The position numbers were made by a program, and so were the translations under genes. From Lachnospiraceae bacterium (GTDB lineage Bacteria > Bacillota > Clostridia > Lachnospirales > Lachnospiraceae): a DNA stretch of 64,000 nt. Positions 44,062 to 55,959 of this stretch are shown here, piece by piece. The notes beneath the pieces were generated by a model. The model searched no databases. It was given only the letters and a program-made list of their open reading frames with translations, and was not told the origin of the DNA. Each line of letters opens with the position of its first letter. Positions within the stretch are counted from its first letter, which is position 1. Location: NCBI GenBank assembly GCA_017936885.1, contig JAGBEO010000013.1, forward strand, positions 186,001 to 250,000. The letters run 5' to 3'.

Positions 44062-44235
44062 ATGAAAGATTATATATACAAAGAAACCCTTGCCAACTTT
44101 CCGCTTGCAATGGCATATGTTCCCATGCAGCACTTTAACGGCATCTGCGATAATCTGGAAGAAGCCTTCAGCGACGGAACAGTTTTCCCTGAGCTGAATA
44201 AGCCATTTACCGGAAGGAGGCACTGTAAGAAATGA
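44062..44235 (+). CDS. cotJA: Spore coat associated protein CotJA
   Basis: A 57-residue protein recognised from the LAMAYVPMQHFNGICDN core and the EAFSDGTVFPELNKPF motif. AAAGG lies six bases before the ATG. The TGA overlaps the cotJB start (ATGA at 44232-44235). First gene of cotJABC, which makes a spore coat layer in Bacillus and Clostridia; expression in the mother cell (SigE) is expected but I could not place a convincing SigE promoter in the 187-base gap to the divergent ABC operon. Confidence 0.9.
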   Translation: MKDYIYKETLANFPLAMAYVPMQHFNGICDNLEEAFSDGTVFPELNKPFTGRRHCKK

Positions 44236-44510
44236 TGAATATGCATTTTGCCAATGAGCAGGAAAAACTGCTCCACGATATCGGCATACTCAGCTTCGTG
44301 GTTGTGGAACTGACTTTATATCTGGACACCCACCCGGATGACCGAAATGCCATGGAATATTTTAATCATTATAATCGTATGACCAATCAGGCGAAAAAAG
44401 AATATTCTGCCAAATACGGTCCGCTGACAATTTCTTATGCAGATACATCGGAATGCAGTGACTGGAAATGGGCGCTTGGCCCAATGCCCTGGGAAGGAGG
44501 ATGCAACTAA
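44232..44510 (+). CDS. cotJB: Spore coat protein CotJB
   Basis: 92 residues. CotJB pattern: LLHDIGILSFVVVELTLYLDTHPDDRNA, EYFNHYNRMTNQAKKEYSAKYGPL and the C-terminal WKWALGPMPWEGG. AAGGAGG precedes it. Overlaps cotJA by 4 bases, and its stop overlaps the cotJC start (TAATG), so the three genes are translated in step. Confidence 0.95.
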   Translation: MMNMHFANEQEKLLHDIGILSFVVVELTLYLDTHPDDRNAMEYFNHYNRMTNQAKKEYSAKYGPLTISYADTSECSDWKWALGPMPWEGGCN

Positions 44511-45115
44511 TGTGGAATTATGAAAAAAGATTACAGTTCCCGGTCAATATTACAAGCCCGAATGCCAGACTGGCGCAGGCTATCATCAGTCAATACGGTG
44601 GACCGGACGGGGAAATGGGCGCATCTATGCGTTATCTCTCACAGCGATATGCGTCTCCCTATCGGGAGGTTTCCGCCATCCTGACAGATATCGGCACGGA
44701 GGAACTGGCGCACTTAGAGATGGTGGCTACTATTGTCCATCAGCTGACTAAAGATTTATCTATGGAAGAAATCGAAGAATCCGGATTTGCCAATTATTAT
44801 GTAGATCATACGGTTGGTATCTGGCCCCAGGCAGCAAGCGGCTTCCCGTTTACCGGTGCACAGTTCCAGTCTACCGGTGATATTATTACTGATTTGATGG
44901 AGGATATGGCGGCTGAACAAAAGGCGCGAACTACTTACGATAACATTCTGAGGCTTATTCATGACCAGGAGGTTTGTGAACCGATTAAGTTTTTGCGGGC
45001 GCGTGAGATTGTGCACTTCCAGAGGTTTGGCGAAGCACTGCGCATCGTTCAGGATAAATTAGATTCCAAGAACTTCTACGCATTCAATCCGGGCTTTGAT
45101 AAGTGTCCGTCATAA
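44510..45115 (+). CDS. cotJC: Spore coat protein CotJC, manganese catalase family
   Basis: 201 residues from ATG 44510 (AAGGAGG nine bases upstream). A four-helix dimanganese catalase fold: NARLAQAIISQYGGPDGEMG, TDIGTEELAHLEMVATIVHQ with Glu/His ligands, and the C-terminal FGEALRIVQDKLDSKNFYAFNPGFD. After FNPGFD the end is KCPS. A second copy of this 3' end, ending SSTGKGSCPCN, lies at 50302-50412. The last 12 bases and terminator recur at 53464. The gene's end is therefore the edge of the accessory island and its present C-terminus may not be the original one. Confidence 0.94.
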   Translation: MWNYEKRLQFPVNITSPNARLAQAIISQYGGPDGEMGASMRYLSQRYASPYREVSAILTDIGTEELAHLEMVATIVHQLTKDLSMEEIEESGFANYYVDHTVGIWPQAASGFPFTGAQFQSTGDIITDLMEDMAAEQKARTTYDNILRLIHDQEVCEPIKFLRAREIVHFQRFGEALRIVQDKLDSKNFYAFNPGFDKCPS

Positions 45116-45186
45116 ACCGATTATATCAATAAGAAAAGAAGCTGTTGCAAAGGTTGATTACTCACTACCGAAGCAATAGCTTCTTT
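45104..45186 (+). repeat. Direct repeat copy A: cotJC stop region plus terminator hairpin
   Basis: It starts with the last 12 bases of cotJC (TGTCCGTCATAA). It includes AAGAAGCTGTTGCAAAGG (45136-45153), TCACTACC (45162-45169) and AAGCAATAGCTTCTTT (45171-45186). AAGAAGCT/AGCTTCTT with TTGC/GCAA form a hairpin followed by TTTTT, so it acts as the cotJ terminator. The same blocks in the same order occur at 53464-53555 (copy B). Confidence 0.85.
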
Positions 45187-45245
45187 TTCCGATTTTAATA
45201 TGTTGTGTTTATAAATATGCAGCATAACAAAAAACATGCACCACC

Positions 45246-45351
45246 TACCGAAACACCAGTTCTCTGACAAGTCCCTATTTTAGATCTTTCACCCTCTCGA
45301 GAAAATCCTTTGCAGTTTTTGGTTCAATTATGAAATACAGTGCGATCATAT
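45246..45351 (-). pseudogene. Fossil of a SWIM gene joined to a GNAT gene
   Basis: 45299-45351 matches 44 of 53 bases of the intact SWIM gene (48462-48514). It can still be read as the 24-residue frame MIALYFIIEPKTAKDFLERV... at 45275-45349. Next to it, 45246-45280 matches 30 of 35 bases of the intact GNAT gene (47684-47718). The order SWIM then GNAT on the minus strand is the same as in the intact pair, but the sequence between is deleted. Confidence 0.75.
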
Positions 45352-45391
45352 ATAAACTTCGCAAACAACCCTTAGAAAGTGAAAAGAATAA

Positions 45392-46786
45392 CTATGACAT
45401 CAAAATCAAATCTTTTCTCACTTTGGAAAACTCCATCAACTCATCAGTAAATCCATTAATGGAAAACAAAATGAAACAATCTTTTCGCTCGTTCCTTTTC
45501 CATTCAACCTGTTCGGCTTTCTTCTCCAGACTCCGTAATACATCCACACCAACTTTATGCGTCCAGTATTTACATTCCCCAAAAATAATATGATTACCCT
45601 CTTTATCAAGAGCCACAATATCAATTTCAGTATTGTTATTCCACCATCTGCCGACTTTATCAAAGTGAAAATCCCATGTATCACTGGCATTAAGCTCCCA
45701 CATTTTTTCAATACATACATTCTCATATACATAGGCTATGTGTGCATCCACTAGGTTTGCCCGTATTTTGTTCATTGCCAGTTCAACATGTCCCGATTCA
45801 ATATAGTTCAGATTCGGAAAAATAAACCGAAACCAGAACAGCATAAAATTATCCTTAATTTTGTATAATCCCTTCTTGCTATTTTCTGGATTATCCTCTG
45901 TTACAGGAACCTCCCTCTCTAAAATATCAAGATTAATCAAGGTTTTCAGATATTTGGTAAGTCCCGTCTGTTTTAACTCAAGTGCAGTCGCTATTTTGGA
46001 AAGTTTCTGATTACCGGACGCGATTGTCTTAATAATAGAAAAATAACTCCCTACCTCACTGACCTCACGCTGCAGCAAAAAATTAGGCTCATCATATAAG
46101 AAGCTGGATTTCGACAATACATTATTTTCTATTGCCGAATAAACATTCGCGGAATCATAAAACAGTTCAATATATTTTGGCACGCCTCCGGTTATGGCAT
46201 AATACTCAATGAGTTCCTTTTCACTTTTATCAGGAAAGAATTCATGATAATGCCGGAAAGCTATCTGTTTCAGCTTGATTTGCCCTGTTCTACGTCCATA
46301 TAAAGGGCTGGAATAGGCAAGGGTCTGGCTTTCCATCATGGAGATAAGCGATCCACAAAGAATCACCATGACATTTCTGTCCTTCAATATCGTATCCCAT
46401 ATTCGCTGAAAGACAGAGGGAAAGGCACGGTTCGCCTTTCCGAGATATTGAAATTCATCAATAATCATCAGCTTTTTTCCATCGGAAGCAGCATCAGCGT
46501 CAATCCATACCTTGAAGATCATATCCCAACTGTCTACATTGGCATTCATCAGCAGTTCGTTGCCCATCTGCTCTGCGACAACGTTTTTAAAAGCAATCCT
46601 GTTTTGGGTTTCATTTTCTTCTGTTGCCAAAAAATAGATCGCCTTTTTATTTTCGATAAATTTATTTGTAAGTGCTGTTTTCCCTACTCTCCGTCGTCCA
46701 TATAGAATCACAAGGGAAGAACCGTCACGCTTATATTCTTTTTCCAAAAAGCCAAGTTCTTCTTGCCTGTTTATAAACTTTTTCAT
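45392..46786 (-). CDS. ATPase_2 / DUF234 family ATP-binding protein
   Basis: 464 residues from ATG 46786 with GAGGTGAT before it. The N-terminal STAND-like ATPase_2 domain has RQEELGFLEKEY, Walker A LYGRRRVGKTAL and Walker B LMIIDEFQYL. A winged helix lies around 260-310 (KIATALELKQTGLTKYLKTL). The C-terminal DUF234 domain carries a PD-(D/E)XK-like pattern, EIDIVALDKEGNHIIFGECKYW. Such proteins are common in mobile and accessory regions and their role is unclear. A collapsed copy of its 3' end lies at 50508-50579. Confidence 0.88.
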   Translation of the reverse strand: MKKFINRQEELGFLEKEYKRDGSSLVILYGRRRVGKTALTNKFIENKKAIYFLATEENETQNRIAFKNVVAEQMGNELLMNANVDSWDMIFKVWIDADAASDGKKLMIIDEFQYLGKANRAFPSVFQRIWDTILKDRNVMVILCGSLISMMESQTLAYSSPLYGRRTGQIKLKQIAFRHYHEFFPDKSEKELIEYYAITGGVPKYIELFYDSANVYSAIENNVLSKSSFLYDEPNFLLQREVSEVGSYFSIIKTIASGNQKLSKIATALELKQTGLTKYLKTLINLDILEREVPVTEDNPENSKKGLYKIKDNFMLFWFRFIFPNLNYIESGHVELAMNKIRANLVDAHIAYVYENVCIEKMWELNASDTWDFHFDKVGRWWNNNTEIDIVALDKEGNHIIFGECKYWTHKVGVDVLRSLEKKAEQVEWKRNERKDCFILFSINGFTDELMEFSKVRKDLILMS

Positions 46787-46808
46787 TCCATAATCACCTC
46801 TCACTATT

Positions 46809-46843
46809 ATTATACTTTAAATTATAATAATTTCAAGTATAAT
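46809..46843 (-). promoter_or_regulatory. Promoter of the ATPase_2 gene within a 35-bp palindrome
   Basis: On the minus strand TTGAAA (46831-46836) and TATAAT (46809-46814) are 16 bases apart. Both lie in an imperfect palindrome (arms of 17 bases, 16 matching). A dimeric regulator could bind here. Confidence 0.6.
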
Positions 46844-46885
46844 ATATGAGAATCGTCAGGAATACCCCGACGATTCTCATATATT
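46841..46885. terminator. Perfect 17-bp hairpin between the broken frame and the ATPase gene
   Basis: AATATATGAGAATCGTC (46841-46857) and GACGATTCTCATATATT (46869-46885) with an 11-base loop. It overlaps the stop of the remnant at 46877 and probably ends the relB transcript before the ATPase promoter. No strong T run follows. Confidence 0.6.
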
Positions 46886-47114
46886 CCAATTGGCAATTGT
46901 CAGTAGGTCTTCATTGAAGCCGCTTATCAGCATGGTATCTAAAAGTTGCTTCTCTGCCTTTTCAATCGCCTTGATTTTCAATTTCAAATCATTAATTTCA
47001 GCTGTGTCACTTTTTCGCCGTATGCTTTGCTTCAGTAAGTTCCGACAGTTTTGCAGCGATACAGCCATAAACCATATTCTCTAAATCTTCCTCTGCATCT
47101 TTGGTAATATATAT
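46877..47114 (-). pseudogene. Frameshifted remnant downstream of relB (serine recombinase C-terminus or toxin start)
   Basis: Right after the relB stop one frame reads YITKDAEEDLENMVYG...AKHTAKK and stops at 47007. Shifting by one base in the GAAAAAG run continues as SDTAEINDLKLKIKAIEKAE...LISGFNEDLLTIAN, ending at 46877. The second half resembles the helical C-terminus of large serine recombinases. The first half could belong to it or be the beginning of a ParE/RelE toxin, given its place after an antitoxin. No start codon with an RBS is seen. Confidence 0.5.
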
Positions 47115-47414
47115 TTATAATCCATATTTTGACCTCATATCGGAAATCACTGCATCTGCCTCACGATATTTGCCTTCTTCACCATGTTTTCTGGATTTCT
47201 CCAGCTTTGCTAACATTTCTTCTTCCGTCATTGCCGCATATGGACTATAATATACTGTATTTCTCTTGATTTCAAAAGGAAAACCATTGTTTGCTACAGC
47301 CTGTGTTAAAAACATTCTGATTGCAGTTGTTGTATCAGTACCCAAATCTTTAAATAACATATCAGATTTCATCTTCAAATCATCATCAACTCTCACCTGA
47401 ATTGTGCTTGCCAT
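47115..47414 (-). CDS. RelB/DinJ family antitoxin, without intact toxin
   Basis: 99 residues from ATG 47414 (AAGGAAG before it). Ribbon-helix-helix N-terminus: STIQVRVDDDLKMKSDMLFKDLGTDTTTAIRMFL, then the RelB-type QAVANNGFPFEI. The C-terminal tail (EEEMLAKLEKSRKHGEEG) would wrap the toxin. No intact RelE/YafQ gene follows; only the frameshifted remnant does. It may be an orphan antitoxin or an isolated repressor. Confidence 0.85.
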   Translation of the reverse strand: MASTIQVRVDDDLKMKSDMLFKDLGTDTTTAIRMFLTQAVANNGFPFEIKRNTVYYSPYAAMTEEEMLAKLEKSRKHGEEGKYREADAVISDMRSKYGL

Positions 47415-47517
47415 AAAATACACTTCCTTCTTTTTTAATTAGAATGCTCATTCATTGCCAAATCAATGCATTTGCAATATTTTATTTAATTTTGGAGAGC
47501 CTTGGATGTTAAAGGTG

Positions 47518-48303
47518 TCAAATAAACTCAATACGATATGTCATCTCATGCCATTCTTCTCCACCCCAGGTTGAATCTGCAATGCCACGATCAACAAATC
47601 CCATCTTCTTATACATTTTCACCTTATTTTGCAGGCATGTCAGTACCAGCATTCCACGGTCATTTTCTCTTTCTCGCCTTAAGTACTGAAACACCAACTC
47701 TCTGGCAAGTCCCTGTTTCCGATATTCCGGTAACACATCCAGTCCCAACAACATAATATTTTGTCCATCCTGCTTGTGTAAATCCGCATCTGTAAAAAAA
47801 TCATCCCTGAATGAATATTCATCCGTTGCCAAACCATTCAGAAATCCTGCAAGCTTACCATTTGTCTTGTCAACTGCCACTAAGAACAATTCCGGTGCTT
47901 TAGCAATTCTTTCTTTCATACATTTTTCAGAACATGCCTCATTGGGCGGGAAGCATATCTGTTCAATGAGCACTGCCTGTTCTGCTTCCTCCTGTCTGAT
48001 AGAACGGAACTCATACTTTTCCATCAGGTCTTTATCTGCCAGATGATACTCTGCAAGCAGCTTCCTCGCATATTCTTTTCCCTCTTCAGATAAATATACA
48101 CATTTACTCTTCTTTGGCTGATACAGTAATTCTTTTTGTTCTAACACATTTAATGTGTCAAAATCATAACCTTTCCAGCTCGGTTCCAAGTATTTGCAAT
48201 ATTCATTATTCTCCTGAAACCTCGTCAGATATAAAAGCATCAGCGACAATTCCTCAACCGCTTGTTTTCTTGATTTCTTATTCATATTCCTATTCATATT
48301 CAT
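47518..48303 (-). CDS. DUF6429-like / GNAT acetyltransferase fusion
   Basis: 261 residues. Residues 1-90 look like a DUF6429-type helical domain (SWKGYDFDTLNVLEQKELL, VYLSEEGKEYARKLL). The rest is a GNAT N-acetyltransferase with the acetyl-CoA loop YRKQGLARELV and the final strand VKMYKKMGFVDRG. The ATG at 48303 overlaps the SWIM stop (TGATG); an upstream TTG is less likely. The acyl acceptor is unknown. Part of this gene is duplicated as a fossil at 45246-45280. Confidence 0.85.
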   Translation of the reverse strand: MNMNRNMNKKSRKQAVEELSLMLLYLTRFQENNEYCKYLEPSWKGYDFDTLNVLEQKELLYQPKKSKCVYLSEEGKEYARKLLAEYHLADKDLMEKYEFRSIRQEEAEQAVLIEQICFPPNEACSEKCMKERIAKAPELFLVAVDKTNGKLAGFLNGLATDEYSFRDDFFTDADLHKQDGQNIMLLGLDVLPEYRKQGLARELVFQYLRRERENDRGMLVLTCLQNKVKMYKKMGFVDRGIADSTWGGEEWHEMTYRIEFI

Positions 48304-48737
48304 CACCAATAATGATTCCTTATATCTTCCAGTTCTACGAGTGCATCATATAGTCTCTCCTGAAGTTCAGCTTTTGAAAGACTATTTACATATTTACGAA
48401 GTTCTATATAGTGCTGTTTTTCTCTTTCTTCTTCCTCTCGTTCCCATTCTTCCACTTGTTTGAGAAAGTCCTTGGCGGCCTTTGGTTCAGCCGTGAAATA
48501 CAGTGCGATCATATGCTTACATACCACTCGTCTGCCATCTGCAAACGGACAATTGCAGACAGAATGCCTTGGATGCGCTTTATCAATATGCACCGTATAA
48601 GAATTGCCTTCACTGCCAGAAACCATTCCGTCATATGTATCATCCCCGGATTTACTCCATGAAATGACTTTCTTATTTTCATAATAATCCATACCACGCC
48701 AGACAGATTTACCGCTGGCAAGTTCTATTAGTCCCAT
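48303..48737 (-). CDS. SWIM zinc finger protein
   Basis: 144 residues. SWIM motif CNCPFADGRRVVCKH (CxC then CxH) near residues 61-75, usually a DNA- or protein-binding zinc module. The N-terminus (ASGKSVWRGMDYYENKKV) is typical of the family. A charged Glu/Arg coil follows (WEREEEEREKQHYIELRKY). GAGGA lies nine bases before the ATG. Coupled to the GNAT gene; the pair appears again as a fossil next to cotJC. Confidence 0.88.
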   Translation of the reverse strand: MGLIELASGKSVWRGMDYYENKKVISWSKSGDDTYDGMVSGSEGNSYTVHIDKAHPRHSVCNCPFADGRRVVCKHMIALYFTAEPKAAKDFLKQVEEWEREEEEREKQHYIELRKYVNSLSKAELQERLYDALVELEDIRNHYW

Positions 48738-48808
48738 ATACTTTAATCCTCACTTTAGTTCTTAAAGATGTAAACCATAAACAATATTCAACGCTCCAAA
48801 GCAAATCA

Positions 48809-50143
48809 TTATCTGTTTTCATAATAACGTAGATTTTTAGCCTTACCTCTTTTCAATAAAGTTCCATCCTCTGTCAACTCACGCAAAAGCAAAATTGCTG
48901 TTGCCTGAGAAATACCAAGTTCTTCTTCAATATCTTTACGTACTACATATCCGTTGCGATGACAAAGTTCCAGAACCGTATTGATCCGTTCCTCTTTTTT
49001 CGTCAGATTCATCATGCCCCTATTTTTTGTATCATCCATAGTATTACATTTTTCTATATGATAGTTTGTATTGGGCAGAGTAATTTTAAATGCATGATCT
49101 GTCGTTTCAATCAGAGGTTTTTCCATGTACTCGTCATAACATTCATTGATTTTCAAAATACCAGTTCCATACGCTTCGATCAATTTCAGGCGATAAAAAA
49201 TATTGGCCAGATACTGATTGCGCAAAACTGAAACACCAAGCTTCACATCATCCAAAGATATGCCTTTCACCAATCCACCAATCGTCACAAATTCAATTCG
49301 ATCTTCAAAAATGCTAATCAGAGTAGGTCCACTGAAAGAATAATCCCGATGCACAATGGCATTCAGCAATGCTTCACGAACAGCTTCAACCGGATAATCA
49401 CGCATATCCACACGATCAAGACCTGAAAATTCTGCACGGGTACGATTATAGCGATCAATATATGAAAAAGCCTCTTCAAGCTGTTCCAACAAGGAACCGG
49501 AAAGTTCTTGCCTGTCCTTGAAAACAGATTTTTTACTCCCCTCAAATACCGCCAGCTTAATTGTATGAGAACATTGTTCTGACAGCAAAAAAGCAAGATT
49601 TGTATATGTGTTATCGTCACCAATCAGGTGCAAAGTTTTCATCTGTGCATTTCCAAACTCTACATTTCGTTTTTTAAAAAAATTAGAAGCCTTTTCAAAT
49701 GTCAGTTGCTGATTAATAGATCTTGCTGTTTCGTAACTGTCCCCACTTGTTTCTTTGATCATATTCAGAATAGCTGCATCGGATGCCGGAACTGTAGAAG
49801 CACCCTGCCGTACATATACCCCTTCAGGCCGAATCCCTTTACTATGAAGATAGTATGGTCTTGCGGTACCACGCTGTACGGTAACACTAACAATCTTTTT
49901 TCCGTCCATAATTTCATTGCGACACTCCATAAACATGGTAATATCAGGGCGTACTGTATCACGAATAGCATTTGTAACACGCAGCATTGTTTCATCCACA
50001 TCATCAACACCGCATACGCTTCCATCATCATTTAAACCAATAAAAAGAGTACCACCATCACAATTGGCAAAAGCAATAATGGTATTTTTTATATCATCCA
50101 CATATTCTCTTTTGAATTCAGTTGTCTTATTTTCCGTAAGCAT
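48809..50143 (-). CDS. AlbA_2 (Schlafen-type) domain transcriptional regulator
   Basis: 444 residues from ATG 50143 (GGAGG six bases before). The N-terminal AlbA_2 domain (EFKREYVDDIKNTIIAFANCDGGTLFIG) binds nucleic acid in relatives. The middle has the HATPase-like block NAIVHRDYSFSGPTLISIFEDR. The C-terminus is a winged helix (VRKDIEEELGISQATAILLLREL). COG2865-type proteins of this layout are usually predicted regulators. A piece of a second copy (about 90% identical over 96 bases) lies at 50580-50675. Confidence 0.87.
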   Translation of the reverse strand: MLTENKTTEFKREYVDDIKNTIIAFANCDGGTLFIGLNDDGSVCGVDDVDETMLRVTNAIRDTVRPDITMFMECRNEIMDGKKIVSVTVQRGTARPYYLHSKGIRPEGVYVRQGASTVPASDAAILNMIKETSGDSYETARSINQQLTFEKASNFFKKRNVEFGNAQMKTLHLIGDDNTYTNLAFLLSEQCSHTIKLAVFEGSKKSVFKDRQELSGSLLEQLEEAFSYIDRYNRTRAEFSGLDRVDMRDYPVEAVREALLNAIVHRDYSFSGPTLISIFEDRIEFVTIGGLVKGISLDDVKLGVSVLRNQYLANIFYRLKLIEAYGTGILKINECYDEYMEKPLIETTDHAFKITLPNTNYHIEKCNTMDDTKNRGMMNLTKKEERINTVLELCHRNGYVVRKDIEEELGISQATAILLLRELTEDGTLLKRGKAKNLRYYENR

Positions 50144-50301
50144 ATGCAACCTCCAACAATCTAATCTAATTTAATCAAATCTAATAATTATTATAATTAT
50201 ATTTTACCCTTTTTCAAGTAGAAATAAAAATTGTTTTTCTTATTTAACAACAGTTTTGTTACATTTATCAGCCTTTCACCCCGCTTACTTAAATCGCTAA
50301 T

Positions 50302-50412
50302 TTCGGCGAAGTACTGCGCATCGTTCAGGATAAATTAGATTCCAGGAACTTCTATGCCTTCAATCCCGGCTTCGACAGTTCTACCGGCAAGGGAAGCTGT
50401 CCCTGCAATTAA
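50302..50412 (+). pseudogene. Second copy of the cotJC 3' end
   Basis: Codes FGEVLRIVQDKLDSRNFYAFNPGFD followed by SSTGKGSCPCN and TAA. The first 25 codons match the cotJC end with only two residue changes, then diverge. No upstream part of the gene is present; the 150 bases before it (50150-50301) are AT-rich with nothing recognisable. Either a leftover of the original cotJC end displaced by an insertion, or the att-like end of a second unit. Confidence 0.85.
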
Positions 50413-50475
50413 CAACCAATTATGGAATGCTATGCAGTATACTAAAATTCCTCAAGCATAAACACAGATAGGCAA

Positions 50476-50505
50476 TACGGCAGGCTCTATTACAAGCCTG
50501 CCGTA
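50476..50505. terminator. Hairpin after the cotJC 3'-end copy
   Basis: TACGGCAGGCT (50476-50486) pairs perfectly with AGCCTGCCGTA (50495-50505), loop 8. It sits 64 bases beyond the fossil stop, where a cotJC terminator would be. Its sequence differs from the hairpins in direct repeats A and B and lacks a T run. Confidence 0.55.
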
Positions 50506-50507
50506 AT

Positions 50508-50579
50508 CAAAACCAAATCTTTCTTCACTTCTGAAAGCCCATTAACACATCCGTAATCCATTGATAGAAAACAAAATAA
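50508..50579 (-). pseudogene. Fossil of the ATPase_2/DUF234 gene 3' end
   Basis: Aligns with the last ~75 bases of the intact gene (45401-45475). It still reads ILFSING in one frame, but the frame then shifts and meets a stop. It directly abuts the AlbA_2 fossil, marking a deletion junction. Confidence 0.7.
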
Positions 50580-50675
50580 TTTGTATTAGGTAAAGTAATT
50601 TTAAATGCATGATCTCTCATTTAGATCAGAGGTTTTTCCATATACTCGTCATAACATTCATTGATATTCAAAATA
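50580..50675 (-). pseudogene. Fossil of the AlbA_2 regulator gene
   Basis: 96 bases aligned without gaps to 49065-49160 of the intact gene, about nine differences. It includes the codons for NINECYDEYMEKPLI. The 50621-51289 frame runs into this fossil and uses it as its C-terminus. Confidence 0.85.
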
Positions 50676-51289
50676 TTTTTTTTCAATATACCTTTATTAT
50701 ATTCTTCAATCCAATACATCATATCTGCATATGCCAATAAGTCAAAATCTCTGCCATAAATATCATTTAATGCCAACGCTTTTATTCTACCATAGGAATA
50801 AGAATCATGTCCTGAATTTGTTGGAGGAAAATAAAATTGTTTTTGTTCTTTTAATTTATTATATTGGGAAATTTCCCCAGCCCGCTTGTATTCTGCCAAA
50901 AGATTCAAATACATAATCCCCAGACTGATTGAAAATGCCGCACAATAATTACAAATCAAAACCTGAACCGGAATGTTATCTATAAGTTTAAATCTAAATA
51001 CTTTATTGTCTATGACACTTTTGCAAAAACATGCCGAAATCTTATGTATATCAATAAGATTTTCATCAACACACTGATTAATTCCTATATAAAAAAATTT
51101 CTCTTTTAAACTGTTCTTAGTTTCAATATAATTTGTATATAGAACTTCTTTATATTCATTCAAGTCTCTAATTTGAAAATCATAATACTGCTCTGCATAA
51201 TATGACTGCTTTAATAATCGGGCAATATTAACTATTTGTGGTTCGATTGCCCTCTCCCATAAGAAACTATATGTGATCTCTTTATTCAA
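50621..51289 (-). CDS. Unrecognised soluble protein whose C-terminus is borrowed from an AlbA_2 fossil
   Basis: 222 residues starting at TTG 51289 with GGGAGGA before it; the start overlaps the previous gene by 8 bases. Mostly helical, Tyr- and Asn-rich, no membrane segment. A notable segment is LIDIHKISACFCKSVIDNK near residues 78-96. The last ~15 residues (NINECYDEYMEKPLI) are identical in character to the AlbA_2 regulator and come from the fossil at 50580-50675, so the natural end has been lost and the protein may be truncated. Low GC compared with core genes. Function unknown; last gene of an AT-rich three-gene unit. Confidence 0.65.
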   Translation of the reverse strand: MNKEITYSFLWERAIEPQIVNIARLLKQSYYAEQYYDFQIRDLNEYKEVLYTNYIETKNSLKEKFFYIGINQCVDENLIDIHKISACFCKSVIDNKVFRFKLIDNIPVQVLICNYCAAFSISLGIMYLNLLAEYKRAGEISQYNKLKEQKQFYFPPTNSGHDSYSYGRIKALALNDIYGRDFDLLAYADMMYWIEEYNKGILKKNILNINECYDEYMEKPLI

Positions 51290-51557
51290 GAATGTCCTCC
51301 CATCCCATAGAAAAACTTATGCTCTCATCATTATAGATAAACTTTATATTTTCGTCTAAACTATGCCCCTTATTTTTTAATTTAATATCTGCCAGCTTTA
51401 CTTCAAGTATTTTGATGTCTTGCATACTATTTTTTTTATCATTTGCTACTTTTTTCGCATTATCAAAGTATCTGACAAATTTAAAAATAACAATCAGTAC
51501 ACAAACAACTATCATTACTAATGAAAACATTAACAACCAATCTAAACCGTTTTGCAT
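51282..51557 (-). CDS. Unrecognised single-pass membrane protein
   Basis: 91 residues. A strong N-terminal membrane helix (LLMFSLVMIVVCVLIVIFKF, residues 8-27) is followed by a Lys-rich juxtamembrane stretch, a short coil (MQDIKILEVKLADIKLKNK) and an acidic end. AAGGAAG precedes the ATG. Predicted N-out/C-in from the positive residues after the helix. Coupled by overlap to the 222-residue protein and probably acts with it. Confidence 0.65.
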   Translation of the reverse strand: MQNGLDWLLMFSLVMIVVCVLIVIFKFVRYFDNAKKVANDKKNSMQDIKILEVKLADIKLKNKGHSLDENIKFIYNDESISFSMGWEDILE

Positions 51558-51584
51558 ATCAAATATCTTCCTTTCTGATTATTC

Positions 51585-52130
51585 TCAATAACTTACAACA
51601 TTTTTAACTGGTTTCTTATAAATAATAATCTTGTCTCTTATGCCATACTTCAAAAGTATAAACATGTATAAGAACTGCATAACAATCAAAAAAATCTGAT
51701 TTCCGAAATTTACTTTAAAACTCAATAACACATACAAAAATGCTAATAAAATAGTACTCACCATGGTAAGAGCCGCATACTCAAGCTTTACTTCCATATT
51801 ATCAATCTGCTGTATTTCTCTATCATTATTAAAAGAATTACTTAATGAAAAATGCTGATACAGAAAAACTGTGGTTGTCGCTATATGCGTTGGAATAAAA
51901 GTGGTGTTAAGTAAACGTAATATATTAAGCCAATCCACAGATTCTTCAGCCACATAATACACACTATAAATTTCAACAACAAAAACCAAAATTGAAATAA
52001 ATATTGGAATCATTACATTGTATCTTGTAGTATGAAATGTCAATACACTCTTTTCCGACTCCAACTCATGATATCTCTTTTTATCCTTAAAACACATACA
52101 AAAATTTTTTGTTCCTTCCTGTATGCTCAT
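51585..52130 (-). CDS. Unrecognised four-helix membrane protein
   Basis: 181 residues. Hydrophobic segments at about 40-60, 70-92, 118-138 and 142-162, with basic cytoplasmic ends (CFKDKKRYHELESEK and IYKKPVKN). No catalytic motif is visible. The assigned ATG has AAAGG touching it, which is unusually close, so the start is uncertain. First gene of the AT-rich unit, with its own promoter at 52185-52212 and a divergent regulator-like gene beyond. Confidence 0.65.
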   Translation of the reverse strand: MSIQEGTKNFCMCFKDKKRYHELESEKSVLTFHTTRYNVMIPIFISILVFVVEIYSVYYVAEESVDWLNILRLLNTTFIPTHIATTTVFLYQHFSLSNSFNNDREIQQIDNMEVKLEYAALTMVSTILLAFLYVLLSFKVNFGNQIFLIVMQFLYMFILLKYGIRDKIIIYKKPVKNVVSY

Positions 52131-52184
52131 CCTTTGTGCACACTATTATTTGTTAATTTCAATTCTATACAAACTATATATATA

Positions 52185-52212
52185 ATTATACATCACTTTT
52201 GTTATTTTGCAA
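52185..52212 (-). promoter_or_regulatory. Promoter of the AT-rich membrane-protein unit
   Basis: On the minus strand TTGCAA (52207-52212) and TATAAT (52185-52190) with a 16-base spacer, 55 bases before the start codon. Confidence 0.65.
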
Positions 52213-52229
52213 TTTAATAATTATATTTT

Positions 52230-52257
52230 ATGAACCATCCTTTTGCAAAAGGTTCAT
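52230..52257. promoter_or_regulatory. Nested palindrome between divergent promoters, operator candidate
   Basis: The perfect 14-bp palindrome CCTTTTGCAAAAGG (52239-52252) sits inside a wider inverted repeat, ATGAACC (52230-52236) with GGTTCAT (52251-52257). It lies between the minus promoter (52185-52212) and the plus promoter (52313-52341). The plus strand continues TTTTTCTT, so a terminator reading is possible, but no transcript is known to enter from the left. The rest of the 299-base gap is AT-rich with no frame of note. Confidence 0.5.
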
Positions 52258-52312
52258 TTTTCTTACCATTTATTTATTTTGTTCATCTTTGTGATATTTT
52301 AACCAAATTTCA

Positions 52313-52341
52313 TTGAAATCAGACATATTTTTAGCTATACT
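52313..52341 (+). promoter_or_regulatory. Promoter of the winged-helix-like gene
   Basis: TTGAAA at 52313-52318 and TATACT at 52336-52341 with a 17-base spacer, giving a leader of about 80 bases. A 10-bp palindrome TCTACGTAGA (52402-52411) lies in the leader just before the RBS. Confidence 0.7.
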
Positions 52342-52429
52342 ATAATCGTAATTAGTTTTTTTAAGAACTCTAGAAAAATGTATTTAAAACAGAAATACTA
52401 TTCTACGTAGATTTGAAAGGACATATATA

Positions 52430-53419
52430 ATGAACCAGAAAAACCGCACAATCTCTAATAGTCAACTATCAAAAAATAATATTTCATACTTAAATAGCAA
52501 TCTAACCAAAAAAGGAAAATTACTTTTATTAACACTATATAAGTATCATCCTTTAAAACATAAGGATTTGGCAAAAATGCTAGACATGCAAACTAATGGT
52601 CTCACAAATTTGATTTCTCATATCAACAATAAGATTTATAAAGATTTGATAGAATTTCAACGTGTTGGACGTTGTAAATTTTACTCCCTTTCTCAAATTG
52701 CAGAAACATATACAGAAAACATATTATTGCCAGAAGAAACAGTTCGCTTAAATGCTCACACGTCTTTTCTGCATAATGATTTCATAATTAGAGATGTTCT
52801 GGACTCTCTCAGAAAATTTCAAGAATTTGAAGGATCTGACTGGTATATCGTATTAGATGATTTATTATATGTTGAAACAAGAAATAGTCATGCAACAACC
52901 ATAAACTCGAAAGATACAAGCAATCATACTTATAATAATTTAAAAAATTTCAAACAAGAAACCTATCAAAATTACATCAGATTTAAAAATGCATTGATAT
53001 CTTTAATCGTGCAACATGGAAAACAATCTGTACAAAAAATATATGACATATTGGATCAAAAAATACTATCTAAGCGCTTGGATTTTTTATTATCAAATAT
53101 TTTAGATGATTTTTACAAAATAGAACCGCTTTTCCATCTGGAAAAGGAAGACTTGCAATCTGCATATTCCATTATTGATAAGATATTTTCAGATTGTTTT
53201 CCTGAAACGTTTGGAACCAATTCCTATATATTACCAACAGAATATTGCAGTATTTATTCTGTTATTATTAATATGACTAATGAATTTAAAGAGAATAATT
53301 ATGATAAAGCCATTTCCATTGAACAATGGGAAAAGAAATTCTATACCAAGAATCATTTTAGCTGTATATCTTATATTGCAGAAAAGTGTAACACCATTTA
53401 CATAAGGCCGTCACAATAA
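52430..53419 (+). CDS. Unrecognised protein with N-terminal winged-helix-like domain
   Basis: 329 residues, very AT-rich codons (many AAA, ATA, TTA) unlike the core genes. Residues ~25-95 look like a winged helix: GKLLLLTLYKYHPLKHKDLAKML, QTNGLTNLISHIN as recognition helix, and KFYSLSQIAETY as wing. The remainder is helical with no known motif. AAAGGA lies before the ATG. Divergent from the three-gene unit with a palindrome between, which fits a local regulator. It could also be an effector that senses something through its large C-terminal part. Confidence 0.65.
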   Translation: MNQKNRTISNSQLSKNNISYLNSNLTKKGKLLLLTLYKYHPLKHKDLAKMLDMQTNGLTNLISHINNKIYKDLIEFQRVGRCKFYSLSQIAETYTENILLPEETVRLNAHTSFLHNDFIIRDVLDSLRKFQEFEGSDWYIVLDDLLYVETRNSHATTINSKDTSNHTYNNLKNFKQETYQNYIRFKNALISLIVQHGKQSVQKIYDILDQKILSKRLDFLLSNILDDFYKIEPLFHLEKEDLQSAYSIIDKIFSDCFPETFGTNSYILPTEYCSIYSVIINMTNEFKENNYDKAISIEQWEKKFYTKNHFSCISYIAEKCNTIYIRPSQ

Positions 53420-53463
53420 AACATTCCTATCTCTTGGCAAACATCCGATTTGGTTGCAGTTCT

Positions 53464-53555
53464 TGTCCGTCATAATTTGATTTATTCATGAAAAAGAAGC
53501 TGTTGCAAAGGTAAATGAAAAACTAATTATTCACTACCAAAGCAATGGCTTCTTT
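53464..53555 (+). repeat. Direct repeat copy B: cotJC stop region plus terminator hairpin
   Basis: TGTCCGTCATAA (53464-53475), AAGAAGCTGTTGCAAAGG (53494-53511), TCACTACC (53531-53538) and AAGCAATGGCTTCTTT (53540-53555) repeat the blocks of copy A in order; spacing differs by some bases. The triplets before it (GGTTGCAGTTCT) continue in frame with the CPS-stop codons, so it looks like the end of a cotJC gene whose body is absent. It marks the right edge of the island. The remaining gap to manA holds nothing else recognised. Confidence 0.8.
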
Positions 53556-53648: not shown

Positions 53649-54668
53649 TTAACAGCTTACCTTCAACAGACAAGCCTTCCCATGCAGCTTAAACGCCACG
53701 GAATCAGCCGGTACAAAGATACAGTCTCCTTTATAGAAATTGAGCATCTGCATATCCTCCCAGAACAACACGCCGCATCCTTCCGTACAAAGAAATACCT
53801 GAAAGGAATTACTTCCCGTTTGAAAATCTGCCATTTCCCGGCATCGCTCCGTATTGAGCAGCATACGTTCTACTTGAAAATATTTGCAGCGGCACAGCAA
53901 GTCTGTCGCATATCCTCTGTGGAATTTCAAAACCCTCATAGGCTGCGCAGGTTCAGAGCTGCCTTTTAAGTTTGCTACTTCAAGCGCTTTATCCAGATGC
54001 AAAGCGCGTTTCTGCCCGTTCTTATCTACACGGTTATAATCATATAAGCGATAAGTAAGATTAGAATTTTCCTGAACCTCGGCAATCAGCGCTCCTGCTC
54101 CGATTGCATGAACCTGTCCTGCTTCAATAAAAAATACATCATCCTTTTTTACGGCTATCTTTTGCAGGTATTTTTCAACAGTGCCATCCTCTATACTGTT
54201 TCTGAGAACCTCTTTATCCATGTCGTGATAAAAACCATATACAAGGTTGGCATCCTTTCCCGCATCCAGAACATACCACATCTCAGTCTTCCCGAGGGAA
54301 CCATTCTCATACTTTCCGGCATACTCATCATCGGGATGCACTTGCACCGACAAGTTTTGTTTTGCATCAATCAGTTTTATAAGAACCGGTAACTCCCCGT
54401 CTGTTTTCGGATGTGTGCCCAGATATTCCGGATGTTTTTTAATGACATCTGTCAACAGCATGCCTTTATGTATTCCGGATACAACTTTACTACTACCATC
54501 CGGATGCGTGGAACATTCCCATGTTTCAGCAAGCGGTGACATATCAATCTCTTTGGAAAAATCATCCTTTAATCTTCTTCCGCCCCACAGGTAGTCTTTC
54601 CCGGCCGGTGCCAATAAAAAAGGTTGCGAATTGTTATCAAGTTTCCAATTCATATTTTTGTTTGTCAT
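53649..54668 (-). CDS. manA: Mannose-6-phosphate isomerase, class I
   Basis: Zinc enzyme that interconverts fructose-6-P and mannose-6-P. 339 residues from ATG 54668 (AAGGA upstream); the frame is open to 54701. Zinc ligands are visible in LSVQVHPDDEYA (Gln, His), LGKTEMWYVL (Glu) and FFIEAGQVHAIG (His). The start lies 32 bases inside manC, so the genes are tightly coupled. Together with manC it feeds GDP-mannose for glycans; no glycan cluster is adjacent. Confidence 0.93.
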   Translation of the reverse strand: MTNKNMNWKLDNNSQPFLLAPAGKDYLWGGRRLKDDFSKEIDMSPLAETWECSTHPDGSSKVVSGIHKGMLLTDVIKKHPEYLGTHPKTDGELPVLIKLIDAKQNLSVQVHPDDEYAGKYENGSLGKTEMWYVLDAGKDANLVYGFYHDMDKEVLRNSIEDGTVEKYLQKIAVKKDDVFFIEAGQVHAIGAGALIAEVQENSNLTYRLYDYNRVDKNGQKRALHLDKALEVANLKGSSEPAQPMRVLKFHRGYATDLLCRCKYFQVERMLLNTERCREMADFQTGSNSFQVFLCTEGCGVLFWEDMQMLNFYKGDCIFVPADSVAFKLHGKACLLKVSC

Positions 54669-55959
54669 GAACGCTGATTTCCTTACCGATCTGAACTTCA
54701 ATCACCTTAAGTTCTGTTTTAGCAATAATTGTGTGTCGGCACCCTGCCTGCATCGTCACAACATCACCGGACTTCACCGGCTGTTCCATTCCGTCTACGA
54801 TCACCGTGCCTTCGCCGGAAATAATATTCCAGATTTCATTCCGTCTTTCATGACTGTGATAGTTCATTTTATGTCCGGGATTCAAGGTGACCTTCACCGT
54901 AATACTGTCATCTTCTATATCGAGAACCCGATAGCTTCCCCATGACTTCTCCGCAAACATGATCTGCCCGTCCAGTTTGTCTACATAAGGTTTAATATAA
55001 CTGGACTGCTCTTTGTCAGACACCAGAATACCTTCCGGCGAGGCAGATACCACGACATCCTTAAGCCCCATACAAAGCACCGGTACGTCCAATTCATTGA
55101 TCACATGCACATTTTCACACTTATCATTGAGAATGGCATCACCGATGGTTTCCTCTTCCATCGCTTCCGTCAACGTATTCCATGTACCGAGATCCTTCCA
55201 GTCTCCTGCGAAGCGCTGAACCTGAATTTTCGGTTCCTTTTCAACGACTGCATAGTCAAAACTGATTTTGGTTAAGGTATCGTACTTTGCAAACAAGTCG
55301 TAATAATCTGTAAAATCAATTAATTCATGTGCTCTTTGCAGCACGTATTTCAGCTTGTACGCAAACACACCGCCATTCCAGAGAGCACCCTGGGCAATAT
55401 AACTCTTTGCCGTCTCCGTATCCGGTTTTTCTTTAAAAGTTTCTACCATACTGGTATGCTCTTTCGATACCGGAACAATATAACCATATTTTTCACTGGG
55501 ATAAGTCGGCTCTATTCCCATCAGTACAAGATTGGCTTCCCCTTTTTCCGCCTGTTCTCCAAGCATTTTCAGTGCCATGAAATAATCATCATCAACATAC
55601 GGATCAACCGGACACACAACCACGGATTCTTCTTCGGATATTCCCTGCACATCATGCAGATAGGCAGTTGCCAGAACAATTGCCGGAAACGTATCTCTTC
55701 TGCAGGGCTCTACACTGATTCCGACATCATCTCCAAGCTGATTATGGATTGCGGATACCTGCGTTTTAGAAGTCGCAATCGTTACGGTTGCGTCTGCATC
55801 GATTTTCTTAATCTGACGATAAACGCGCTGAACCATGGATTCATATTCATTTTCCGAACCGGGCTTCTTAAAAATTTTAATAAACTGCTTAGAACGGATA
55901 TCATTCGACAGCGGCCACAACCTTTTCCCGGAACCTCCGGACAGTAGTACTATATTCAT
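54637..55959 (-). CDS. manC: Mannose-1-phosphate guanylyltransferase with cupin domain
   Basis: Makes GDP-mannose from GTP and mannose-1-P. 440 residues. The nucleotidyltransferase domain starts MNIVLLSGGSGKRLWPLSN and has FKEKPDTETAKSY and WNGGVFAYKL. From about residue 330 a cupin domain follows (VKVTLNPGHKMNYHSHERRNEIW), as in fused ManC types, but the isomerase is encoded separately by manA here. No phosphomannomutase gene lies in the window. Promoter and palindrome lie upstream at 55987-56045. Confidence 0.92.
   Translation of the reverse strand: MNIVLLSGGSGKRLWPLSNDIRSKQFIKIFKKPGSENEYESMVQRVYRQIKKIDADATVTIATSKTQVSAIHNQLGDDVGISVEPCRRDTFPAIVLATAYLHDVQGISEEESVVVCPVDPYVDDDYFMALKMLGEQAEKGEANLVLMGIEPTYPSEKYGYIVPVSKEHTSMVETFKEKPDTETAKSYIAQGALWNGGVFAYKLKYVLQRAHELIDFTDYYDLFAKYDTLTKISFDYAVVEKEPKIQVQRFAGDWKDLGTWNTLTEAMEEETIGDAILNDKCENVHVINELDVPVLCMGLKDVVVSASPEGILVSDKEQSSYIKPYVDKLDGQIMFAEKSWGSYRVLDIEDDSITVKVTLNPGHKMNYHSHERRNEIWNIISGEGTVIVDGMEQPVKSGDVVTMQAGCRHTIIAKTELKVIEVQIGKEISVHDKQKYELET

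Follow-up and report, generated by a model that had tools for sequence, protein, structure and literature searches.

Repeated cotJC gene ends in a Lachnospiraceae genome as the probable scar of a large serine recombinase element, and split cotJC genes among its relatives

We analysed a window of 64,000 nucleotides from Lachnospiraceae bacterium (assembly GCA_017936885.1, contig JAGBEO010000013.1, positions 186,001 to 250,000), in which an island (45116-53555) lies between a whole copy of cotJC, a gene for a manganese-catalase-like spore coat protein, and a manA-like gene. The match of cotJC to NCBIfam ManCatBAC was weak and under the model cut-off. Two open reading frames (ORFs) upstream are, from their position in the cotJ operon, presumably cotJA-like and cotJB-like. 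A preliminary description had noticed three copies of the cotJC end here. The features that bear on them are listed below; LSR stands for large serine recombinase, attB and attP for the attachment sites of host and element, attL and attR for the junctions left by insertion, and S0 to S3 for insertion sites within cotJC. Relatives are designated by locus (L), genome (G) and contig (C).

44062-44235, plus strand: cotJA-like ORF, 57 aa, upstream in the cotJ operon (ORF call)
44232-44510, plus strand: cotJB-like ORF, 92 aa (ORF call)
44510-45115, plus strand: cotJC, manganese-catalase-like spore coat protein, whole, C-terminus FDKCPS (ORF, comparison)
45026-45036, plus strand: S3 core (attB) inside the live cotJC, TTTGGCGAAGC, codons 173-176
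45104-45190, plus strand: final 12 bases of cotJC and terminator T2, copy A
46876-47090, minus strand: dead LSR remnant, frame shifted, with large deletions (91% identity across 203 columns with the LSR gene of L135)
50284-50312, plus strand: predicted attR, element arm 50284-50301 joined at 50302 to core TTCGGCGAAGT
50302-50412, plus strand: old cotJC 3' end, codon 173 to stop, tail FDSSTGKGSCPCN
50476-50505, strand not assigned: hairpin terminator T1, 3' of the old cotJC end (by eye)
53464-53555, plus strand: cotJC-end relic (12 bases) and terminator T2, copy B, adjoining manA

The three copies were borne out. The 37-codon copy (50302-50412) aligns to the live gene (44510-45115) over 74 nt with 91% identity. 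Searched against the own genome, the cotJC end with its terminator gave four matches, namely itself, the copies at 50302 and 53464, and, on another contig, a terminator that resembles it weakly. The repeat is thus not spread over unrelated terminators of the genome. The third copy consists of TGTCCGTCATAA and a similar terminator; its 12-mer occurs twice in the window against 0 expected by shuffling, and the T2 pattern occurs three times in the genome, two of them at this locus. Given the alignment, the own-genome search and shuffling expectations of 0, a chance origin of the repeats was rejected. T2 was also sought as a cotJC-linked terminator in other loci, with matches only in the window's own loci, and Rfam gave 0 families at gathering score over the window. 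The copy at 50302 is still an open frame, and its tail FDSSTGKGSCPCN differs from the FDKCPS of the live gene, a difference that the preliminary description had not recorded. The former resembles the tail FDNSTGKGSCPCD of the related locus L135; the latter is closest by eye to the FDKCKS of L053, a relative that also has manA downstream.

Directly left of the copy at 50302 stands CTTACTTAAATCGCTAAT, an arm (50284-50301) likewise absent from the earlier account. The 28-mer formed by arm and core occurs once in the window (0 expected), and the same 28 nt are found letter for letter in L071, a metagenome contig of a related species; similar arms are present in L054 and L075/L166. In L071, 4424 bp interrupt cotJC (95% amino acid identity across codons 1-176) at codons 173-176. 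The insert begins with an antisense LSR gene, includes the GNAT gene and pieces of the SWIM gene and ends in the same arm; the native cotJC 3' end and, at most 170 bp further on, manA come next. L135, taken from genome G073, represents the same locus; its LSR is intact, with Resolvase, Recombinase and Zn_ribbon_recom domains, and the GNAT of the L071/L135 element is 92% identical in amino acids to that of the window. L071 and the window attR copy have the same tail type, and the live gene has another. An allele with other cargo at the same site, as anticipated, is therefore present in L071/L135 together with an active mover, and other relatives carry different genes there.

The window itself holds the LSR only as a remnant. 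Positions 46890-47090 match the L135 LSR gene at 185 of 203 aligned columns (91%) with a 2-base frame shift, and can be read in two frames as LSR residues 386-412 and 411-453; the 14 bases at 46876-46889 match near the 3' end of the same gene. The suggestion that 46877-47114 is what is left of the mover was thus right. In the own genome, an LSR of this type (family S3b, see below) was found only as the fragment at the locus, LSRs elsewhere reaching at most 33% identity, from which the S3b element of this lineage would be dead and trapped. Six matches to the LSR domain PF07508 lie outside the island in this same genome (G000, contigs C10, C16, C18, C22 and C36), none close to the S3b type. Taken together, these comparisons identify the 50302 repeat as a predicted attR of an LSR element, and the window as the apparent scar of one, with cotJC whole again and the LSR dead.

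The remaining features of the island and its right flank are as follows.

45285-45351, minus strand: SWIM-gene fragment, 78% to 48448-48514 (alignment)
45392-46804, minus strand: DUF234/ATPase_2 protein, PADLOC PDC-S27 candidate defence (family search)
46834-46892, strand not assigned: hairpin, its last 14 bases also present close to the 3' end of the LSR gene in L135 (alignment)
47115-47423, minus strand: RelB/DinJ-type antitoxin (family search)
47518-48309, minus strand: DUF6429-GNAT protein, 92% amino acid identity to the GNAT of the L071/L135 element
48303-48737, minus strand: SWIM zinc-finger protein, gene pieces of which persist in the L071 element
48809-50149, minus strand: SLFN_AlbA_2 / HATPase_c_4 protein (family search)
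50520-50577, minus strand: ATPase gene-end fragment (23 nt at 91%, remainder by eye)
50576-50675, minus strand: AlbA_2 gene fragment, 90% to 49061-49160 (100-nt alignment)
50621-52130, minus strand: three ORFs (222, 91 and 181 aa) with no named family (family searches; the 91-aa ORF was outside the NCBIfam search)
52430-53419, plus strand: 329-aa ORF, no family match (family searches)
53649-54701, minus strand: manA-like gene, right flank (name from the preliminary description)

Family searches confirmed the ATPase_2, relB, GNAT, SWIM and AlbA_2 genes between the first two cotJC ends. Collapsed AlbA_2 and ATPase fragments in the same order were also found in the second block, the AlbA_2 fragment being solid (100 nt, 90%) and the ATPase fragment weaker (23 nt at 91%, more by eye). 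The SWIM fragment at 45285-45351 is an addition to the earlier list. The 222-aa ORF (50621-51289) has a C-terminus derived from the AlbA_2 gene fragment, and appears to be a fusion created when the second block collapsed. PADLOC matched the DUF234 ATPase (45392-46804) to its candidate defence model PDC-S27 with E 1.6e-53 and, weakly, the SWIM protein to PDC-S62, so that the trapped cargo may include a defence gene. Among the family matches of the window cargo we found neither a tyrosine integrase, looked for as the mark of a tRNA-type genomic island, nor a relaxase, looked for as that of an integrative mobilizable element.

The same gene is interrupted at several places in the genus. A protein search for cotJC in 77 genus genomes matched 66, and the 11 without a match were left out of the counts. 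By hand tally cotJC is split in 34 of the 66 and full-length in 32, with 14 splits at S1 (codons ~58-69), 5 at S2 (~132-137) and 15 at S3 (~167-180); several genomes, such as G036, G013, G023, G082 and G086, are broken twice, at S1 and S3. G004 was counted as split since its match, although full-length at first sight, ends in an S3a left arm, and G092 was assigned to S3 since its other half has an S3a attR and LSR (its first half ends at the contig end, codon 152). Second copies at 66-67% identity in G017 and G079 were set aside as paralogs rather than whole cotJC. The neighbouring gene nrdD, 3.6 times longer and our only control for break frequency, had a close copy in 75 genomes. This copy was partial in four of them (G011, G090, G003 and G020), in one case covering 1-704 of 729, and no complementary second pieces were among the matches listed. 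Among the 34 split genomes, 24 have an LSR ORF of at least 200 aa at a break (hand tally); the other 10 have 28 to 2405 bp on the insert side or were outside the LSR scan. None of the 79 loci with one full-length gene alone has an LSR ORF in the flank covered, which spans at least 2 kb on the 3' side in 68 of them. The LSR profile was built from the families found here and could therefore miss distant recombinases. Of 35 pieces chosen by hand (one of them, G092 C1, not at an att core), 11 have a contig end on the insert side no more than 200 bp from the break, and both contigs of G013 end at the S1 core. These ends may hint at mixed populations, and other explanations exist.

Each of the three sites is used by two LSR families, six in all within the genus, with 39-52% identity between the families of one site and 19-24% across sites. 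One LSR from each family was inspected, and all six have Resolvase, Recombinase and zinc-ribbon domains. A short identical core stands at attL and attR in relatives (GAYATCGGT-like at S1, GCAGCRGA-like at S2, TTYGGYGAAGC at S3), with dyad symmetry of the attP arms by eye; in the window only the attR is present. S1a elements carry genes for the LSR, a Mob_Pre (MobV-type) relaxase, a DnaG-type zinc ribbon and DUF3987, and we noticed no phage genes among them; the S3b element of L135 has no relaxase among its listed ORFs. In most pairs the LSRs are far more alike than cotJC. L039 and L042, from two species, share a near-identical S1a LSR (synonymous divergence, dS, 0.03) next to cotJC copies with dS 0.93, as expected if an S1a element had recently spread between species. 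Two S1 attR pieces 3.5 kb apart in L156 (G080), and in L038 (G012) an S1 attR followed downstream by another with a deletion, indicate repeated insertion at S1 as well, as judged from their sequences. IMG/VR gave no match to the S3a LSR and two contigs (L194 and L195) with the S3b LSR; the phage collection gave no match to the latter at E 1e-60, and the plasmid collection searched with the S1a LSR gave 80 records, each below 60% identity.

Breaks of this kind extend beyond the genus. Among 15 stretches from other genera of the family, picked for partial cotJC matches, L175, L176, L178, L180 and L188 are broken at a fourth site (S0, codons ~28-31) and L186 at a slightly different place, each with an LSR, and five have no LSR ORF. 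The fourth site is used in other families too. Of 88 genomes sampled across the order, 55 matched at E 0.01 and ~23 of these have complementary pieces (hand tally, in which G040 and G410 are less clear). In G444 cotJC lies in four pieces on four contigs, with LSRs adjoining the S0, S1 and S2 breaks (L207, L208 and L210); its second piece aligns through a stop, as expected where an alignment passes a break. Metagenome assembly error as the sole cause of the splits was rejected, since two single-contig genomes are split with an LSR at the break: G398 at S1 with 52.5 kb between the pieces, and G453 at S0 with 4.8 kb. The two IMG/VR contigs, whose LSRs are S3b-like (83%), have their attL in cotJC genes 53 and 71% identical to that of the window. 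In both, the cotJC piece (L194:7453-11184 and L195:3615-6040) is bounded on the 5' side too, at codons 26 and 17, with another LSR ORF near, perhaps reflecting two breaks in one gene. In four human-gut phage records (MT839049, MT839831, MT839280 and MT835881) the cotJC match ends at S1 or S2 positions. L218:149-18010 (G438) contains cotJC codons ~99-187 three times and codons 63-187 once within 18 kb, and no LSR ORF was found in this stretch; it is perhaps a longer array of old ends like that of the window, with a further site near codon 98.

The attR, the LSR remnant and the shared cargo at the window locus, and the intact counterpart in L071/L135, are directly seen; the locus as a whole is very probably best explained by insertion of an LSR element inside cotJC, followed by repair with a whole allele that trapped the cargo. 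cotJC would carry an attB for such elements within its coding sequence, and an S3b-type element would have entered an ancestral allele whose tail was SSTGKGSCPCN, at the core TTYGGCGAAGC in codons 173-176. Since the site lies inside the gene, the element would have truncated it, removing about the last 25 codons as is still the case in L071/L135, and the whole gene of today would be a later repair. The proposal of site-specific insertion thus holds through the attR arm and core and the LSR remnant, while its placement at the gene terminus does not; with this correction the earlier observation is confirmed and its interpretation stands in substance, amended by the further insertion sites of the same gene. 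The locus would later have regained, upstream of the old element, a whole cotJC with the other tail (KCPS) and terminator, and lost the attL and most of the LSR, so that the cargo was trapped and the old 3' end left as attR and tail. On sequence, the two tails would most simply mean that the split allele had the first tail, and that the whole allele taken up afterwards brought the second. This order of events, the repair by uptake of a whole allele and a second round are suggested rather than seen. The relic at 53464 beside manA is real and suggests that the insertion-repair cycle may have occurred more than once; a second round or uptake of a longer stretch would each account for it. By hand tally, a whole gene with an old 3' piece downstream occurs in 13 of the 32 full-length genus genomes, the window's included; in G096, G031, G019 and G074 the old piece is on a different contig from the whole gene. 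As in the window, no LSR ORF separates the live gene from the first old piece in L047, L048, L054 and L075/L166. An LSR is not missing from every repaired locus, however: L047 and L167 each carry an intact one in an old piece farther from the live gene.

Several observations weigh against this history. An attL search at the window locus gave 0 matches, the ATPase gene between cotJC and the LSR remnant is absent from the L071 element, and the T2 relic beside manA misfits a single insertion into an SSTGKGSCPCN allele. No empty cotJC site of the window's species was found, one genome of that species being covered. The live gene and the old end differ at 5 silent and 2 coding positions (by eye), which taken alone may fit an old duplication too. 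Tandem duplication or unequal crossing-over of the cotJC end, with no integrase and later decay, would indeed repeat the gene end and terminator and leave AlbA_2 and ATPase fragments in both blocks in the same order. However, the 50302 copy is preceded not by cotJC sequence but by the attR arm of an LSR element, which L071 carries intact, and a piece of the L135-type LSR lies in the island. This origin is already unlikely for the 50302 junction, and we regard it as distinctly improbable for the locus.

In many tRNA-targeting integrases the attP carries a substitute gene end. An element that likewise brought a whole 3' end, so that the gene was never broken in this lineage, would leave a similar pattern of live gene and old 3' piece, and live and old tails do differ here and in L047 (FDCTK versus FDCDSQKSN). 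We nevertheless consider this unlikely, as elements whose LSR is intact do cut the gene short: at S3, the attL junctions of L035, L037, L041, L046, L047 (old copy), L135, L136, L141 and others lead directly into non-cotJC DNA. Moreover, the old pieces of L047, L048 and L049 differ from the live copy by dS 0.35-0.5 and are as distant as another species' gene. In L048, L049 and L054 both tails are similar, which is predicted neither by a substitute end nor by insertion and repair alone. It is very hard to credit that the old 3' end serves as a spare C-terminal cassette, swappable into cotJC by recombination at the shared core. The old piece of the window is still an open frame with the core on both sides; against such a role, there is no LSR at the locus, the old pieces of L166/L075, L168 and L170 are broken or out of frame, and the pooled ratio of nonsynonymous to synonymous divergence (dN/dS) of old pieces is higher, at 0.17.

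We give about even odds to a putative developmental reassembly of cotJC across an order of gut Clostridia, in which LSR elements at four fixed codon positions, up to three at once, would leave when the terminal mother cell is sporulating. The gene, in as many as four pieces, would be stitched together for each spore, the element would ride the germ line cost-free, and the window would show the remains after element death and repair by uptake of a whole allele. In relatives, foreign DNA lies inside a sporulation gene, the element encodes its recombinase, and excision restores the frame in silico: joining at the core gave an open frame in 19 of 19 distinct split loci, including L162 and L185, where an alignment gap obscured the core and inspection gave it on both sides together with an open frame. 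The pooled ratio of nonsynonymous to synonymous polymorphism (pN/pS) of split pieces is 0.10 (S1 3'), 0.09 (S1 5'), 0.09 (S3) and 0.09 (S2), compared with 0.12 and 0.08 for whole genes over the same codon ranges and 0.17 for old pieces downstream of whole genes, some of which are out of frame. Split copies thus appear to be under selection like whole copies. In L159/L161, silent divergence is 0.94 for the LSR and 0.90 for cotJC, with a cotJC dN of 0.039, which suggests that the element stayed while cotJC was under selection.

Other results speak against rejoining. Since LSRs are more alike than cotJC in most pairs, the elements would move often and many insertions be young, so that a low dN/dS is expected even for a dead gene. 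No conserved sigma-E- or sigma-K-like promoter was found upstream of the LSRs, matches being scattered; a sigma-E-like match in both S1b members was not used as evidence, their upstream regions being near-identical. In C. difficile, as described in the sections of PMC5025042 concerned, the LSR is constitutive and the directionality factor is the controlled part. No joined attP of S3a or S1a was found in the 77 genus assemblies: the S3a pattern matched in 16 genomes, all of them attR by their last bases, and the S1a pattern in 0 of 77. Finally, loss of cotJC may be tolerated: PMC11222575 quotes work in C. difficile in which mutation of cotJC relatives left the coat with little defect.

LSR elements in sporulation genes are already known. 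In the skin element of Clostridioides difficile, for which the relevant parts of PMC5025042 name the LSR CD1231 and the directionality factor CD1234, sigK is split by an LSR element and joining at the core gives an open frame, as it does here in silico in relatives. Here, in contrast, cotJC is targeted, at four sites and by many LSR families; its excision is putative, and the element in the window is dead. The gin element in gerE of Bacillus cereus (PMC5595907), yin in yabG (PMC10747680), vfbin and SP-beta/spsM likewise place exogenous DNA inside a sporulation gene. As far as these accounts extend, they concern single genes with one element, whereas cotJC is interrupted at several sites across an order, with as many as three breaks at the same time. 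Like gin, described there as not a prophage, S1a elements show no phage gene that we noticed, and carry a MobV-type relaxase gene. In the C. difficile phage phi027, the attR adjoins CDR20291_1465, a CotJC-like manganese catalase gene (PMC11222575); that gene is described as downstream of attR and not as split, and the passages on the site draw no sporulation link, whereas cotJC is split in the relatives studied here. The heterocyst excision elements of cyanobacteria, in the part of PMC4874684 that treats them, similarly interrupt functional genes of a terminally differentiating cell, with more than one element per genome, and leave on differentiation, as the elements in cotJC may do; the genes and the phylum are different. 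With their LSR, Mob_Pre relaxase, DnaG-type zinc ribbon and DUF3987 genes, S1a elements resemble LSR-borne integrative mobilizable elements, unlike the S3b element of L135. In the open-access literature, with most subscription journals outside its scope, no paper among those listed describes cotJC split by an intervening element, and we found no description of a single gene with four insertion sites served by many LSR families across an order.

The news is therefore the target gene cotJC rather than the kind of element. Its sites supply natural attB/attP pairs for several LSR families. If split cotJC is rejoined in sporulating cells, it would be, to our knowledge, the most frequent and most fragmented programmed gene assembly in spore formers. 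Its hosts would be common gut bacteria, and it would explain the choice by mobile elements of genes that only a dying cell needs. If it is not rejoined, about half of the species of the genus carry a broken copy of a conserved spore-coat gene that is repeatedly rebuilt from imported alleles, which would be equally odd.

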